Positions 18,353-32,234 of a stretch of DNA of 37,324 nucleotides are shown here, piece after piece. Source of the stretch: an uncultured Mycoplasmatota bacterium (GTDB lineage: Bacteria; Bacillota_I; Bacilli_A; RF39; UBA660); the NCBI GenBank assembly GCA_945919295.1, contig CAMEJC010000008.1, forward strand, positions 1 through 37,324, in the 5' to 3' direction. The notes under the pieces are model-generated. The model made no database searches and was not told the origin of the DNA. It saw nothing but the letters and a program-made list of their open reading frames with translations. The position numbers and the translations under genes were made by a program. Each line of letters begins with the position of its first letter. The first letter of the stretch is position 1.

Positions 18353-19687
18353 CTATGTATAAATTAAATCTGTAACAGTATTTTCAACAAATCTACCTGC
18401 TACCTCATCATCTAATTCAATTTTCATTTGTGATAGTGCCTCTTTAAATGCACTAACCATATTGTCATAATTTGATACTTTTGAACTTGCTACATTTGAA
18501 CCAACATTTATATTGGTATCAAATTCAGTAGGTATAGCATTAGCCATTTCATTTGAAACATCACTCATAGTATCGCTAAATCCTTCTCCAATACCTAGTG
18601 CTAAGTTAGTACCAATTTCTTCTTTAAATAATTTTGAAGGAGAACTTATACCAAATAATTTTTTAATAAATTTAGTAACACTTCCTACCCATCCTTTAAT
18701 CTTATCTTTAATCCATTGTAAACTTCCTGATATACCTTGCCAAATACCTTGGACTAAATATTTACCAGTATTCTTAATTTCACTAAATCCATTCTTTATG
18801 CCATTAACAATAGTACTTATTATTTTAGGTGCTTGCATTAGTAATTCTCCTAATGCTCCGACTAAACCTACTGCTAATTTCCCAATTAACTGACCTCCTG
18901 CTTGTACTATTTTAGGGAAGTTCCTAATAATAGCATCAACTAATTTTTGTATAATAATTGGTGCTTTTTCAATTAATTTAGGTATAGCCTCTATAAGACC
19001 ATCTGCTAGTCCAATTATTAATTGAATACCTGCATCTACAAGCATATCTATATTATCAATTAAAGTGTCAACAATTAATAATACTGCATCTATTATTGCA
19101 GGAATTAACTCTGGTAGACTTTCTCCTATTCCTTGAACTAATGCTATTATTAACTGAATACCTGCATTTATTATTGTAGGTAGATTTTCAACTATAAATG
19201 TAGCAAGACTAGTTATTATTTGAACTACTACTGGAAGTAATTGAGGTATCATTGAAGTTATGCCATCCATTATTGATTGTAATAAACTCATTCCAGTTTC
19301 CATTAATTGTGGTAGATATTCAACTAATTTTTCTGATAAACTAAGTACTAATTGAACTATTCCTTGAATTATAATTTCAACTCTAGGAAGTATATTTTCT
19401 CCTACTGTTACAATACTATCAACAAAATTATCAATTAATCCTTGAAAATTAACATTATCATTTGCAATTCCTGTAAGTAAGTTTTGCCAAGCACTTTTCA
19501 TTGATGCTACTGAACCTTGAATAGTTGTACTTGCCTCTTTTGCAGTTGTTCCAGTTATTCCAAGTTCTCCTTGTATAACATGAATAGCCTCATATACATC
19601 ATTTAAACTACTAATATCATATTCTACACCACTTATAGCAGTAGCATCAGCAAGTAACCTTTCCATTTCACTTTTAGTTCCACCATA
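18353..19687 (-). CDS. Tail tape-measure protein, exon 2
   Basis: This is the C-terminal 444 residues of the tape-measure protein after intron removal, starting YGGTKSEMERLLADATAISG. It has long hydrophobic repeats (VDAGIQLIIGLADGLIEAIPKLIEKAP and similar units spaced about 32 residues apart) that could enter the membrane when DNA is injected, and a C-terminal region with WVGSVTKFIKKLFGISSPSKLF, a conserved motif of these proteins. A conventional call would start at an ATG at 19699, but the first four residues (MNIM) come from the intron. Joined to exon 1 it gives a 729-residue protein that sets tail length. Confidence 0.85.
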   Translation of the reverse strand, partial: YGGTKSEMERLLADATAISGVEYDISSLNDVYEAIHVIQGELGITGTTAKEASTTIQGSVASMKSAWQNLLTGIANDNVNFQGLIDNFVDSIVTVGENILPRVEIIIQGIVQLVLSLSEKLVEYLPQLMETGMSLLQSIMDGITSMIPQLLPVVVQIITSLATFIVENLPTIINAGIQLIIALVQGIGESLPELIPAIIDAVLLIVDTLIDNIDMLVDAGIQLIIGLADGLIEAIPKLIEKAPIIIQKLVDAIIRNFPKIVQAGGQLIGKLAVGLVGALGELLMQAPKIISTIVNGIKNGFSEIKNTGKYLVQGIWQGISGSLQWIKDKIKGWVGSVTKFIKKLFGISSPSKLFKEEIGTNLALGIGEGFSDTMSDVSNEMANAIPTEFDTNINVGSNVASSKVSNYDNMVSAFKEALSQMKIELDDEVAGRFVENTVTDLIYT

Positions 19688-20551
19688 CATAATATTCATA
19701 TAAGTTCGTTACTCTTATATCGTTCTCTTATGAACTGCTATATATTTCTATATAGATTAGACTATATCTTTATCTCTTTCGAGATACCTCGCACTTCCAT
19801 TCACTTGAATGTACTCTACTCCATTAAGAAAGACACCCTTTTGGATGCCTTCTTTGTTTCGATAGTCGTTACACATTTATAAAATTACAACTATTTTTTA
19901 TATTCAAATTTATAATATCTTGTTATACCTCTTTTGCCATAAGTTCCCTTCTTTAACATTTGAGATATATTAGATATTGTTGTATCAAAATATTCTGCTA
20001 CATCAGTTATTCTATTAAATTCTAATATTTCACCATTTATGTGAGTAACAATTACTTTTTCACTTCTAATACCATAAGTATTAAATCTTGAATTTTGCTC
20101 ACTATATGTTGCCCATCTAAGATTATCTAACGAATTATTTAATCTATTTCCATCCTTATGGTCAACTGTTGTCTTATTTTCTGGATTAGGTATAAATGCC
20201 TCTGCTATCAATCTATGTAAAGCATATTTTTTGCATTTATTATTTTTCCATAAGTCTACATATTTATAACCATTTTGCTTATTTATAAATGGTGTGAGAA
20301 TTTTATTTGTCTTATCATTTCTCACTTCTCCTACTTCGTTAATAGAATAATTATCATTTGTTTTTATTTTCTTCCAATTCACAATATTTCCTCTTTCTTA
20401 CAATACCTCGTTATTGCTAATTTAAGTATAGCATAAAAAGGGAGAAATTGTCAATATTTGTAATTTTATTTTAGTTCGGTATTATCTACAACATTACTTG
20501 TTTAGATTTCCACCGAGTTCACGAGGTTTATACTGAGCAATGGTGTAGTTT
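19688..20551 (-). mobile_element. Group I intron (IA-like) in the tape-measure gene, 864 nt
   Basis: The core can be drawn from the sequence. P1 pairs exon end CUGGGU (20557-20552) with GCUCAG (20538-20533), giving the required U-G pair at the splice site. P10 pairs exon-2 AUGGUG (19686-19681) with CACCAU (20545-20540). P3 pairs ACCUCGU (20527-20521) with GCGAGGU (19792-19786). P8 is AUCUC-GAAA-GAGAU (19785-19772). P7 pairs GACUAU (near 19867-19862) with AUAGUC in the classic AAGAUAUAGUC (19770-19760). The intron ends with G at 19688. Removing it joins LKLG to YGGTK, restoring the normal tape-measure sequence. An HNH gene lies inside. Confidence 0.9.
19891..20382 (-). CDS. Intron-encoded HNH homing endonuclease (NUMOD4-HNH_3-NUMOD1)
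   Basis: A 163-residue protein inside the tape-measure intron. A NUMOD4-like start (MNWKKIKTNDNYSINEVGEVRN) is followed by HRLIAEAFIPNPENKTTVDHKDGNRLNN with the HNH residues, NLRWATYSEQNSRF, and a NUMOD1-like helix-turn-helix end (FNRITDVAEYFDTTISNISQMLKKG) for target recognition. It would cut intron-less tape-measure alleles and drive intron spread. The start is GTG at 20382 behind AGAGGAAATATT. A relative lies at the left edge of the window. Confidence 0.88.
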   Translation of the reverse strand: MNWKKIKTNDNYSINEVGEVRNDKTNKILTPFINKQNGYKYVDLWKNNKCKKYALHRLIAEAFIPNPENKTTVDHKDGNRLNNSLDNLRWATYSEQNSRFNTYGIRSEKVIVTHINGEILEFNRITDVAEYFDTTISNISQMLKKGTYGKRGITRYYKFEYKK

Positions 20552-21406
20552 ACCCAGTTTTAAGTTGTCTAACATAGTATAATTAGATTTTGCAAAACCT
20601 TGATAAGCATTTTGTATGCTTTCCATAGAAGTACCCATTTTATTAGCATTATCAGCCATATCAGTAATAGCCATATCAGCAACTTCTGCACTTTTTGCAG
20701 TATCTCCATTTAAACTTTGTAATAAACTAGCACTAAATGATGTTACTGTTTCCATATACTCATTAGCAGATAGTCCAGCAGTCTTATAAGCATTATTTGC
20801 ATAATCACTTACTATTCCCGAACTATCTTTGAATAATGTTTCTACACCACCAATTAACTGCTCATAATTTGCATAACTATCTAATGCTTGTTTACCAATA
20901 TCAACAAATGCTTTTCCAACTTCTAATACTGCACTTCCTAATTTCTTTAAGCCTCCAACTATTACATCACCTAATATGTTCGCTTTAAGTATATCTCCAA
21001 ATTTTAAAGCACCACTTCCTGCATCATCAAAGCCAGTTTTCATATCTTTTAATTCTTTAGTTGATTTATCAGTTGCATCTTCCATTTGCCTTAATTGATT
21101 TTCTGCATTATTAAGTTTTGTTTTAAATTCAACTACCTTTTCATTATCACTTCCATATTGCTTTTCTAATTTTGCTAATTCTTCTCTGAAAGCATTAACT
21201 TTTGTTTTTTGGTCTTGCAATGTTTTATTCATGTTATCATAAGATATTTTTGTCTGTTTAATAGTTTTATCTCCATTTGAGAATTCAGTAGTAGTCAATT
21301 TTAACTCACTTGACATTAGTTTTAAATTTGAAGTAATATCTTTTAGAGCCTTTCTATATTCACTCTCTCCTTGAAGTTTAATTGTTCCACCAAAACTTGT
21401 AGCCAT
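20552..21406 (-). CDS. Tail tape-measure protein, exon 1
   Basis: The N-terminal 285 residues of the tape-measure protein: MATSFGGTIKLQGESEYRKALKDITSNLK, in parts, then a long coiled coil (KTKVNAFREELAKLEKQYGSDNEKV), a Gly/Ala-rich stretch (LGSAVLEVGKAFVDIGKQAL) and the phage tail TMP core YANYEQLIGGVETLFKDSS...QNAYQGFAKSNYTMLDNLKLG. Without splicing the frame runs seven more codons (KLHHCSV) to a stop at 20528. GGAGGGATAAT precedes the ATG. See exon 2 for the remainder. Confidence 0.87.
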
Positions 21407-21421
21407 ATTATCCCTCCTTCC

Positions 21422-21658
21422 TCAGAACCATTCTTCATTTTCCATTTTCTTTTCTTCTAATTCTTGATATGTCATATTAGACCTTTTTAATATAATTTCA
21501 TTATCAAAATCATCTTTATAGCATTGATATAATTTATTGAAAGTTCTTAAGGTAAGCCTTCCAACTTCTTTAAAAGTTAATCCTAATTTATTTCTTCCTA
21601 TAAAATAAAACCAAGTGAAGTCTATAGGATCATCATCAACTTCATCTTGGACTATGCG
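21422..21658 (-). CDS. Tail assembly chaperone frameshift extension (gpGT-type, T part)
   Basis: In the -1 frame after the slippery site AAAAAAC (21664-21658) the minus strand encodes 78 residues without a stop: RIVQDEVDDDPIDFTWFYFIG, in parts, then GLTFKEVGRLTLRTFNKLYQCYKDDFD and a charged end. The frame has no proper start of its own and runs to TGA at 21422. It is conserved in position with the T part of lambda gpGT and its Firmicute analogues, which hold the tape measure during tail assembly. The fused product would be 193 residues. Confidence 0.8.
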   Translation of the reverse strand, partial: RIVQDEVDDDPIDFTWFYFIGRNKLGLTFKEVGRLTLRTFNKLYQCYKDDFDNEIILKRSNMTYQELEEKKMENEEWF

Positions 21659-22002
21659 TTTTTTACATCACTTTTAGTTCCTTCAACAATAGCCTCATTT
21701 AATTTTTTAGCACTCTTTTCTATTCCTGCTTTTGTTATAATTCTTCCAACTTGCTTTTGAGTTAAGAAAGGTTCATTTAATCCTTCTTCATCATTTTTGA
21801 TATCTATTGCCTCATTCATCATAAGAGCAAGACCAAATATTAATGCCTTAACATTTACTTCTCCTGATTTTCCATCAGTTAATTCTCCCCATTTTTCAAG
21901 AGTTCCATATTCCTCTTGTATATCTTGCATTACATTTAAATTGAATATTAATTGATACTTTTTATCTTCTACTTCTAAATCGAATTTATAATCTTTAATC
22001 AT
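21652..22002 (-). CDS. Tail assembly chaperone (gpG-type)
   Basis: A 116-residue helical protein (MIKDYKFDLEVEDKKYQLIFNLNVMQDIQEEYGTLEKW, in parts) in the standard place between the major tail protein and tape measure. It matches the small tail chaperones of siphoviruses. Close to its stop (VKNA) the sequence GTA AAA AAC contains the canonical -1 slippery heptamer A AAA AAC in the correct phase, so a minority of ribosomes should shift to make a longer GT-type product. AAAGAGGTAAAAAA precedes the ATG. Confidence 0.82.
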   Translation of the reverse strand: MIKDYKFDLEVEDKKYQLIFNLNVMQDIQEEYGTLEKWGELTDGKSGEVNVKALIFGLALMMNEAIDIKNDEEGLNEPFLTQKQVGRIITKAGIEKSAKKLNEAIVEGTKSDVKNA

Positions 22003-29497: not shown

Positions 29498-29557
29498 TGG
29501 TGTGACTAGCAGAATCGAACTGCATCTATTACTTGTTTTACCTTAAACTATCATCAC
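29498..29557 (-). ncRNA. tRNA-like element lacking an anticodon arm
   Basis: The minus-strand 60-mer has GTGATGA (29557-29551) pairing with TAGTCAC (29508-29502) except for one G-A mismatch. A perfect D-arm follows (TAGTTTAAGGTAAAACA; stem GTTT/AAAC around AAGGTA). A T-arm GCAG-TTCGATT-CTGC (29523-29509) and an encoded A-CCA end complete it. Only about 11 bases lie between the D- and T-arms, too few for an anticodon arm, and the T-stem has four pairs rather than five. The 5' half overlaps the last codons of the Mom-like gene. It could be a decayed tRNA or a functional tRNA mimic. Confidence 0.5.
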
Positions 29558-30290
29558 ATTTATTATTTCTTTCTTTATATGTTATTTTTTCCCCTTTATA
29601 CATTCTTGCACCAATTTCATCAATTTTACTAAAAGGAATTATTGGAACAGTTAATTTATCTTTACAAGATTTATCTATAAAATATATATATCTTAATTGA
29701 TAACCTGTAATTCTTTTTGCACCACTTAATTCAATCCATTTTTTTATTGAATAAGTTCCACCACTTACATCATATAAGCACTTGCCATTTAATTCTGGTC
29801 TTGGCTGTTTTGGACTACTTTGCAATGTTAATTGATGTATTACTTCACCATTTGGTAATCTGAATAATGCCTCATTCGGTTTTATTGCAGTTAATACAAA
29901 ATTACTTGCTCTATATATTGTACCATCACCACATTGACACCCATCAGCAAATGATATAATCCATTTAATATGAGGTGCATTCTTTTTAATTAATTTTATA
30001 CTTTGACTTATTGCCCTACTTTCACTATTTCTAGGAAGTGCATCATCAAAAGCCATTCTATTTAATTCTAAAAATTCATTCCATTTCGTTTCTTTAACCA
30101 ATCCTATTATTTTAGATTTATCTAAACTAGAACCATAACTCATTACTCCATGTAATCTACCATCTAAAAATACACCAAAATGTAATTTACTATTATTGAC
30201 TACTTTACCACTATAATGATGTTTTTTTATAAATTCATTAGCAATTTTACTTGGTATTACTTTTACAATAATTTCTTTTGCTCTGCCCAT
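29538..30290 (-). CDS. Mom-family DNA adenine modification protein
   Basis: A 250-residue protein of the Mom type, GNAT-fold enzymes that modify adenine in phage DNA and protect it from restriction (known from phage Mu). Supporting stretches: IANEFIKKHHYSGKVV, LHFGVFLDGRLHGVMSYG, ELNRMAFDDALPRNSESRAIS, and PHIKWIISFADGCQCGDGTIYRASNFVLT read in parts. It follows and overlaps a ParB-like gene and precedes terminase, where many phages place a DNA methylase. Family call is from pattern memory; chemistry is known for Mu Mom only. The stop lies within a tRNA-like element. Confidence 0.7.
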   Translation of the reverse strand: MGRAKEIIVKVIPSKIANEFIKKHHYSGKVVNNSKLHFGVFLDGRLHGVMSYGSSLDKSKIIGLVKETKWNEFLELNRMAFDDALPRNSESRAISQSIKLIKKNAPHIKWIISFADGCQCGDGTIYRASNFVLTAIKPNEALFRLPNGEVIHQLTLQSSPKQPRPELNGKCLYDVSGGTYSIKKWIELSGAKRITGYQLRYIYFIDKSCKDKLTVPIIPFSKIDEIGARMYKGEKITYKERNNKCDDSLR

Positions 30291-30862
30291 AAATATACAA
30301 CTTCAAATAATGCATTACTTTTTTTATTTGCATTGTTATAATCATGAGCAATTAAACCATTGTCAGTTATATAATCAATACATTTCATTGCTATTTCATA
30401 TTGTTCTTCTGCTAATGATAAAGTAATTGTTCTAGTTTGTGGCTTGTCATCATTCGGCAATTCAAAATCAGTACCAAGTGCATCTATATCAATATCTGGT
30501 ATTTCAAAATTAAATTGCTCCATATCTATATTTATTATTTCTGCAAGTTCACTATCTAAAATATTAAAATCAAATCCTGTATTCATAGTTAATTTATTAT
30601 GAACTAGAATATATGCTCTTTTTTGTTCTTCTGTTAAATGAGATAATCTTATACATTCAACTTCTTTATATTTTAATTGCTTTAATGCCTCATATCTCCC
30701 ATGACCTTCTATAATAATATTATTTTCATCTATCGCTATTGGATCATTATTCCCAAATTCTAAAATAGATTTTTTTATTTGGTCTATTTGGTCTTGTGGA
30801 TGTAATTTAGCATTATTTTCATAAGGTTTTATATCTTCAATTCTAACTTTGGTTATTTCCAT
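30263..30862 (-). CDS. ParB-like nuclease-domain protein (ParB/Srx)
   Basis: A 199-residue protein whose first 95 residues form a ParB N-terminal domain: VRIEDIKPYENNAKLHPQDQIDQIKKSILEFG (in parts), DPIAIDENNIIIEGHGRYEALKQL with the GHGR box, then LTEEQKRAYILVHNKL. The C-terminal half is different and acidic. In phages this domain often pairs with a DNA-modifying enzyme just before terminase; here the partner is Mom-like. It may bind nucleotide (CTP or ATP) through the GHGR box. AAAGGAGTATTC precedes the ATG. Confidence 0.78.
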   Translation of the reverse strand: MEITKVRIEDIKPYENNAKLHPQDQIDQIKKSILEFGNNDPIAIDENNIIIEGHGRYEALKQLKYKEVECIRLSHLTEEQKRAYILVHNKLTMNTGFDFNILDSELAEIINIDMEQFNFEIPDIDIDALGTDFELPNDDKPQTRTITLSLAEEQYEIAMKCIDYITDNGLIAHDYNNANKKSNALFEVVYLWAEQKKLL

Positions 30863-31538: not shown

Positions 31539-32234
31539 CTAGCCTTTCATGTCTCTCTTATTAACTAATTCAAATAACTCTTCTCTAGGTATATCGCCTT
31601 TCTCTGCATAAACCCAACTATAACCACCTGCAGTCTTTCTTTTGCCTTTGCAACATTGAAAGATGTGTGAACAGTTTGTGTTTGTTTCCCTACTTGCTTG
31701 AAGTCCACTATCAAATGTTTTATTGAGTTCTATGCACTTTATTCTTCTCTTTTTTGTGGAGTTCTCGCTCATTCTTTTTCTTGTTTCTTGACTTATTGTT
31801 CTGCCCTTTAATTTCTCACTTAACTTTCTTTTTGTTTCTTCTGTCAAAGGCTTACCTTTTCTGTTGCTTGGTTTCCCTGTCCTGTCTATGCTTAATGCTT
31901 TCCTGCTCTCTTCACTCCATTTGCACCCATTAGCACCACCCTCACCACCTATACTGTTGTTATAGCCATACTCTCTATCATTGCTTTTATATTTACTTAT
32001 TAAAGCCTTTTCTTTTTCGTATGCCTCATCAGGTGTTAAGTTCTCATATAAGATTTCGTGCTTTATGTTATTCCACCCATATTTTTGAATGGCATTATAA
32101 AAGTGCTTATTGTTCTTGTATTTGCTACCATCTTTGCCCCATCTACTACAAAGCCTTTGTTTTGTAATGCCTATGTAAACTTTGTTATTCGGGCAAGTGT
32201 GCTTGTACACACAATAGTTATTTTCTATCTCCAT
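31539..32234 (-). CDS. GIY-YIG homing endonuclease (NUMOD3/NUMOD1), with a captured HNH-gene tail
   Basis: A 231-residue protein. The GIY-YIG domain reads YCVYKHTCPNNKVYIGITKQ and FYNAIQKYGWNNIKHEILYE. NUMOD3 repeats follow (GKPLTEETKRKLSEKLKG, ISQETRKRMSE), then a NUMOD1-like region (FDSGLQASRETNTNCSHIFQCCKGKRKTAGGYSW). After the normal end at YSWVY it continues AEKGDIPREELFELVN, which closely matches the end of the upstream HNH protein (AEDGEIPREELLELVEN). It overlaps that gene by 17 bases, suggesting insertion within the HNH 3' end with the old tail fused on. Confidence 0.88.
   Translation of the reverse strand: MEIENNYCVYKHTCPNNKVYIGITKQRLCSRWGKDGSKYKNNKHFYNAIQKYGWNNIKHEILYENLTPDEAYEKEKALISKYKSNDREYGYNNSIGGEGGANGCKWSEESRKALSIDRTGKPSNRKGKPLTEETKRKLSEKLKGRTISQETRKRMSENSTKKRRIKCIELNKTFDSGLQASRETNTNCSHIFQCCKGKRKTAGGYSWVYAEKGDIPREELFELVNKRDMKG

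Follow-up and report, generated by a model that had tools for sequence, protein, structure and literature searches.

The window analysed here is a complete contig of 37,324 bases, one of the 77 contigs that make up a 1.27-Mb genome. It carries integrase, terminase, portal, capsid, tail and lysis genes, and hence derives from a temperate siphophage or a prophage fragment; a search for a direct repeat of the contig ends found none. In the gene for a tail assembly chaperone (21421-22002) there is a canonical A-AAA-AAC slippery site at 21664 with the -1 frame open to 21421, which makes a programmed frameshift probable. A second homing endonuclease candidate (31539-32234; phrog_314, with a match to the GIY-YIG family too) is located near the terminase region, and at 29538-30862 a Mom-like DNA modification gene, beside a ParB-like gene, adjoins the large terminase gene.

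Two open reading frames on the minus strand, 21406-20528 and 19699-18353, are parts of a single tape-measure gene. Both match PHROG tape-measure families and cover consecutive parts of the same profiles: the upstream frame spans positions 4-176 of phrog_3981 and 76-485 of phrog_991, and the downstream frame positions 175-492 and 484-724, respectively. The gene is interrupted as follows:

20552-21406, minus strand: tape-measure exon 1, 285 codons, ending in LDNLKLG with U as its final base; PHROG matches, junction in agreement with intronless relatives
19688-20551, minus strand: group IA intron of 864 nt, starting AAACUACACC and with G as its last base; RF00028 match, fold, covariation among relatives
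18353-19687, minus strand: tape-measure exon 2, stop codon included, beginning YGGTKSEM; PHROG matches, aligned to the intact proteins of L183, L008 and L012-L015

Joining 21406-20552 to 19687-18353 yields a protein of 729 amino acids with LDNLKLG/YGGTKSEM at the seam, in keeping with the original prediction that splicing would connect LKLG to YGGTK and restore a frame of 729 residues. The junction agrees with the intact tape measures of L183, L008 and L012-L015, and the ends of the insert match the intronless relatives to the base, so that the splice sites proposed earlier (20551-19688) are upheld. The nearest of these relatives, L183, is a Bacilli metagenome-assembled genome (MAG) that comes, by its title, from a deer rectum sample; here LKLGYGGTK is uninterrupted, and the flanks are 117/150 and 81/100 amino acids identical on either side (~78-81%). 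The site is intact in 78 of the 80 best IMG/VR tape-measure relatives, 79 being listed when L183 is included.

Fold and covariation of the intron

The intron has a G+C content of 27%. Its fold was computed with the endonuclease reading frame cut out and a short loop in its place, and was compared with 100 shuffles. The minimum-energy core fold, at -77 kcal/mol, comprises P1, P3, P4, P5, P6a, P7.1, P7.2, P8 and P9 (z=-5.1), and none of the 100 shuffles was equally stable. The 3' domain (19888-19738) matches Rfam Intron_gpI (RF00028) with 39.4 bits and E=2.5e-8 in a small-region E-value scan, whereas a default Rfam scan at the gathering threshold found nothing, because this score lies below the Intron_gpI gathering score of 50; the covariance search suggested with the original prediction thus gave a match, albeit one under the family cut-off. 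Fold and match together display the conserved P3-P4-P6-P7-P8 core of group I introns, the final U of exon 1 pairs with a G of the guide, and the intron ends in G in the window and in the listed relatives. The elements are:

20552-20557, minus strand: P1 5' strand, exon CUGGGU; pairs with the guide in 30/30 intron sequences
20540-20545, minus strand: P10 guide CACCAU; pairs with exon-2 AUGGUG (19686-19681), supported in part of the family
20533-20538, minus strand: internal guide sequence GCUCAG, P1 3' strand; varies with the exon Leu/Gly codons
20521-20526, minus strand: P3 5' strand CCUCGU; P3 occurs in 8 distinct versions, with pairing in 47/48 cells
20511-20516, minus strand: P4 5' strand UCGGUG, with 3' strand UACCGA at 20481-20476; fold
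20458-20468, minus strand: P6a 5' strand UAAAAUUACAA, a perfect 11-bp complement of 19890-19880; fold; closes the loop in which the HNH gene and its promoter-like site lie
19880-19890, minus strand: P6a 3' strand UUGUAAUUUUA, immediately after the HNH stop codon; fold
19862-19867, minus strand: P7 5' strand GACUAU; kept by the aligned relatives, save a few with GACUAC or GGCUAU
19826-19854, minus strand: P7.1 hairpin, a hallmark of subgroup IA; fold
19798-19811, minus strand: P7.2 hairpin CAUUC-AAGU-GAAUG, a hallmark of subgroup IA; 5/5 pairs with compensatory changes
19787-19792, minus strand: P3 3' strand GCGAGG; P3 covariation
19772-19785, minus strand: P8 with GAAA loop; fold, compensatory changes
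19760-19765, minus strand: P7 3' strand AUAGUC, within AAGAUAUAGUC; conserved in all aligned relatives
19738-19755, minus strand: P9 hairpin with GAAA loop; fold, compensatory changes

All five pairings put forward in the original prediction (P1, P3, P7, P8 and P10) are present. Subgroup IA is defined by P7.1 and P7.2 hairpins between the P7 5' strand and the P3 3' strand, and the core of the T4 td intron is of this type. Both hairpins occur in the fold and P7.2 covaries; the intron therefore belongs to subgroup IA.

The related introns preserve this structure through sequence change, which, with the Rfam match and the stability of the fold, bears out the earlier assignment to group I. The comparison covered 30 distinct intron sequences inserted at this codon boundary, drawn from nine homologous introns of annotated phages, from IMG/VR loci and from the window. 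Compensatory changes among them occur in P1, P3, P7.2, P8, P9, P9.1 and P9.2, and in part in P10, where, for example, the exon AUGCCG of L028 is accompanied by intron CGGCAU. U.G occupies the splice site in every P1 helix; the guide tracks the exon Leu/Gly codons, with CUG, CUC, CUA and UUG set against GCUCAG, GCCGAG, GCCUAG and GCUCAA or GCCCAA, respectively. In the intron 3' domain 24/34 pairs have changed on both sides with pairing kept; it should be emphasized that these compensatory counts refer to cells in related sequences, not to independent events. The P3 pairing was equalled by 1/5000 shuffles. An alternative P3, in which the 5' strand would pair with its complement ACGAGG in the HNH leader as a regulatory refold, was rejected as the leader motif ignores changes in P3: L036 has the P3 5' strand CCACGT yet retains ACGAGGT. 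The motif, ACGAGGT or ACGTGGT in the relatives, looks like a Shine-Dalgarno sequence.

The endonuclease gene and its promoter-like element

Two further features occupy the P6a loop:

20425-20454, minus strand: TTGACA-18-TATACT, resembling a promoter and with TG preceding the -10, located in L6a ahead of the HNH gene; the best-scoring of 47 sites in 6 kb
19891-20382, minus strand: NUMOD4-HNH endonuclease gene, 163 amino acids, GTG start; Pfam and PHROG matches, similarity to I-HmuI (1u3e, E=3e-15)

The HNH gene that had been predicted in the intron is clearly recognizable, as the frame 20382-19891 matches Pfam HNH_3 (1e-14) and NUMOD4 (7e-9), both above the cut-offs, and this domain pair, with the similarity to 1u3e, places the protein among the I-HmuI-like NUMOD4-HNH endonucleases.

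A promoter-like site comparable to that in L6a is present in the short HNH leader of most relatives. When each leader was shuffled separately, p<=0.02 was obtained in 19/27 leaders, several of them near-duplicates, and the test returned nothing notable for the leaders of L017, L040 and L041. L042, whose HNH gene runs against the direction of the tail operon, keeps an 11/12 site. A promoter of its own in L6a probably serves the HNH gene.

An intron lineage at one codon boundary

The window intron shares its insertion point and a homologous core with a lineage found at LKLG/YGGT in Lactococcus r1t-like phages (r1t, proPhi7, 28201 and others) and in Streptococcus phages. The tape-measure halves are annotated as separate open reading frames in r1t, proPhi7, 28201 and Javan520, the HNH gene in the Javan271 record bears the note 'Phage intron', and the MissG1 record has an ncRNA feature over the intron; on splicing of the r1t intron, no text was found in the open literature searched. 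Similar to the window, r1t, proPhi7, 28201 and Streptococcus Javan520 have the LKLG/YGGT insertion, an IA core ~86-87% identical in the aligned 3' part, and in the P6a loop a NUMOD4-HNH gene that is 65-67% identical. In contrast, their tape-measure proteins are only 46-59% identical to that of the window near the junction, P7.1 and the loop sequences differ, and the HNH proteins contain an extra segment of ~16-20 amino acids. In the case of r1t the 3' core is ~87% identical, compared with 49-56% for the flanking tape-measure protein, as expected if the intron moved by homing. The introns of MissG1, IPP23 and 33888, and the second intron of Javan271, have the same site and core but lack an endonuclease gene and are 275-298 nt long; that of IPP23 (64.3 bits) passes the Rfam cut-off, which the window intron does not reach.

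The endonuclease clade is equally tied to this site. The 23 closest IMG/VR relatives of the HNH protein (L023-L045; ~53% identity or more across most of the protein) all lie in introns at LKLG/YGGT, 22 having been placed by a scripted motif test and L042, with its reversed HNH gene, added separately. By the same test none of the more distant IMG/VR HNH relatives is at this site. C41431 has a different reading frame in the same insertion site, and the HNH-less introns of L002, L018, L020 and L022 have the same core. An endonuclease present, replaced or lost at a single site is the pattern of gain, replacement and loss expected of homing. The L042 intron (L042:2700-3800, ~865 nt) carries its HNH gene antisense to the tape measure, with a TTGACA-17-TAAAAT site of its own.

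A short stretch of the tape-measure gene has three insertion points, the two extra ones being within ~24 nt of the main site. In Javan271 (L018:2078-3290) the Met codon of FTMLDNLKLG is itself broken by an insert of 893 nt, which precedes the LKLG intron; the two flank a 22-nt exon, joining restores FTMLDNLKLG, and Rfam reports only the second insert. In L196 (1501-1770) a short, HNH-less related intron follows LD (LD/NLKLG), 12 nt upstream of the main site, and its guide fits the shifted exon. A search of 193 host-family and 395 class genomes with a model of the intron 3' domain found, besides the window, only this L196 intron in a tape measure, and the LKLG/YGGT site was occupied only in the window among the host-family genomes searched. 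The HNH search of 392 phylum genomes gave one other match, which was partial. Introns with similar 3' domains were also seen in L188, L190-L195 and L204, loci of that family or class; the genes that hold them look terminase-like or reductase-like, or are of other or unclear types.

The view that phage introns are less usual in tape-measure genes does not survive these comparisons, because the same intron is known in Lactococcus and Streptococcus phages, all 23 closest HNH relatives are at the site, and the literature describes the tape measure as 'another frequently interrupted gene' (PMC10448857). In Vibrio phage ICP1 the tape measure has three introns, whose splicing was demonstrated by RNA-seq and RT-PCR (PMC10448857). 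Similar to the window, ICP1 has an HNH-3 endonuclease gene within a tape-measure intron (PMC10448857), although this phage is unrelated, has three introns in the gene and is likened here by description, not by sequence. I-HmuI of Bacillus phage SPO1 (PDB 1u3e) has an N-terminal NUMOD4/HNH region homologous to the window protein and is likewise encoded by a group I intron; in SPO1, however, the intron interrupts DNA polymerase and has its reading frame in P8 (PMC3073962), rather than in P6a of a tape-measure intron. The T4 td intron resembles the window in holding its endonuclease gene, I-TevI, in the P6 loop (PMC3073962), but the enzyme is a GIY-YIG nuclease, the host gene encodes thymidylate synthase and the td reading frame overlaps the core (PMC3073962), whereas that of the window ends just before the P6a 3' strand.

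Predicted splicing and homing, and a resource for the family

Almost certainly, a temperate siphophage's tape-measure gene holds here a mobile, self-spliced group IA intron with an I-HmuI-type homing endonuclease. Once transcribed the intron would fold, the end of exon 1 pairing with the guide in P1, and two guanosine-initiated transesterifications would excise the 864 nt, ligating CUGGGU to UAUGGUGG and restoring the 729-residue tape measure. The product of the P6a-loop gene, a NUMOD4-HNH protein, is predicted to be an endonuclease of the I-HmuI type; near LKLG/YGGT it would cut or nick tape-measure alleles that have no intron, and repair of the cut allele would copy the intron in.

It could be argued that the intron is spliced but carries an inactive or passenger endonuclease and is no longer mobile, as the HNH gene starts with GTG and some relatives have lost it entirely. 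This is unlikely, however, given that the HNH frame is full length and retains the DH-DGNR-NN-NLRWAT block common to I-HmuI and its relatives, and that the HNH clade stays tied to one target site. Far less probable is gene decay, or a gene in pieces, in which insertion of an HNH gene left the two halves of the tape measure to be made as separate proteins, without splicing. The downstream piece does start with an ATG in frame (19699), and in r1t, proPhi7 and others the annotation gives each half a gene of its own, but this reading fits poorly with the base-exact boundaries of the insert, with complementarity kept through sequence change, intron-exon pairings included, and with the HNH-less introns that share site and core. 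A group II intron or an intein, either of which also interrupts and then restores a gene, has next to no chance of being correct: the frame continuing from exon 1 hits a stop inside the intron (20528), which rules out an intein, and the exon-final U, intron-final G, P3/P7/P8 core and Intron_gpI match are group I features, with no reverse transcriptase among the reading frames of the region.

With the mobile group IA intron as the preferred reading, a broader proposal can be offered tentatively. The LKLG/YGGT introns may represent one long-lived, site-specific homing lineage in which the endonuclease, expressed from its own intronic sigma-A-type promoter, is independent of the late tail operon; it would be produced during lysogeny or at an early stage of infection, and would cut the tape-measure gene of intronless phages that enter the cell. 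If the gene does use its own promoter in this way, the endonuclease would be a competition or exclusion factor, more than a passenger.

The mechanism in the original prediction is right and the rarity of the host gene is wrong. The lineage is seen at this codon boundary in many tape measures from phages of Gram-positive bacteria, and the window intron is a well-supported, ordinary addition to it. With exact splice sites in hand, the split tape-measure gene can be annotated as one. The tape-measure intron family of dairy and streptococcal phages gains a further host lineage: the phage contig falls in the bin of a small-genome MAG of Bacilli type, a host group inferred from L183, the closest relative with a name. 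The guide that tracks the exon leucine codon provides a clean natural record of RNA-exon coevolution. A clade in which endonuclease genes are present, lost, replaced or inverted at one site would lend itself well to tests of the homing cycle and of the competition role that has been reported for an intron endonuclease of phage PhiPA3 (PMC11620839).
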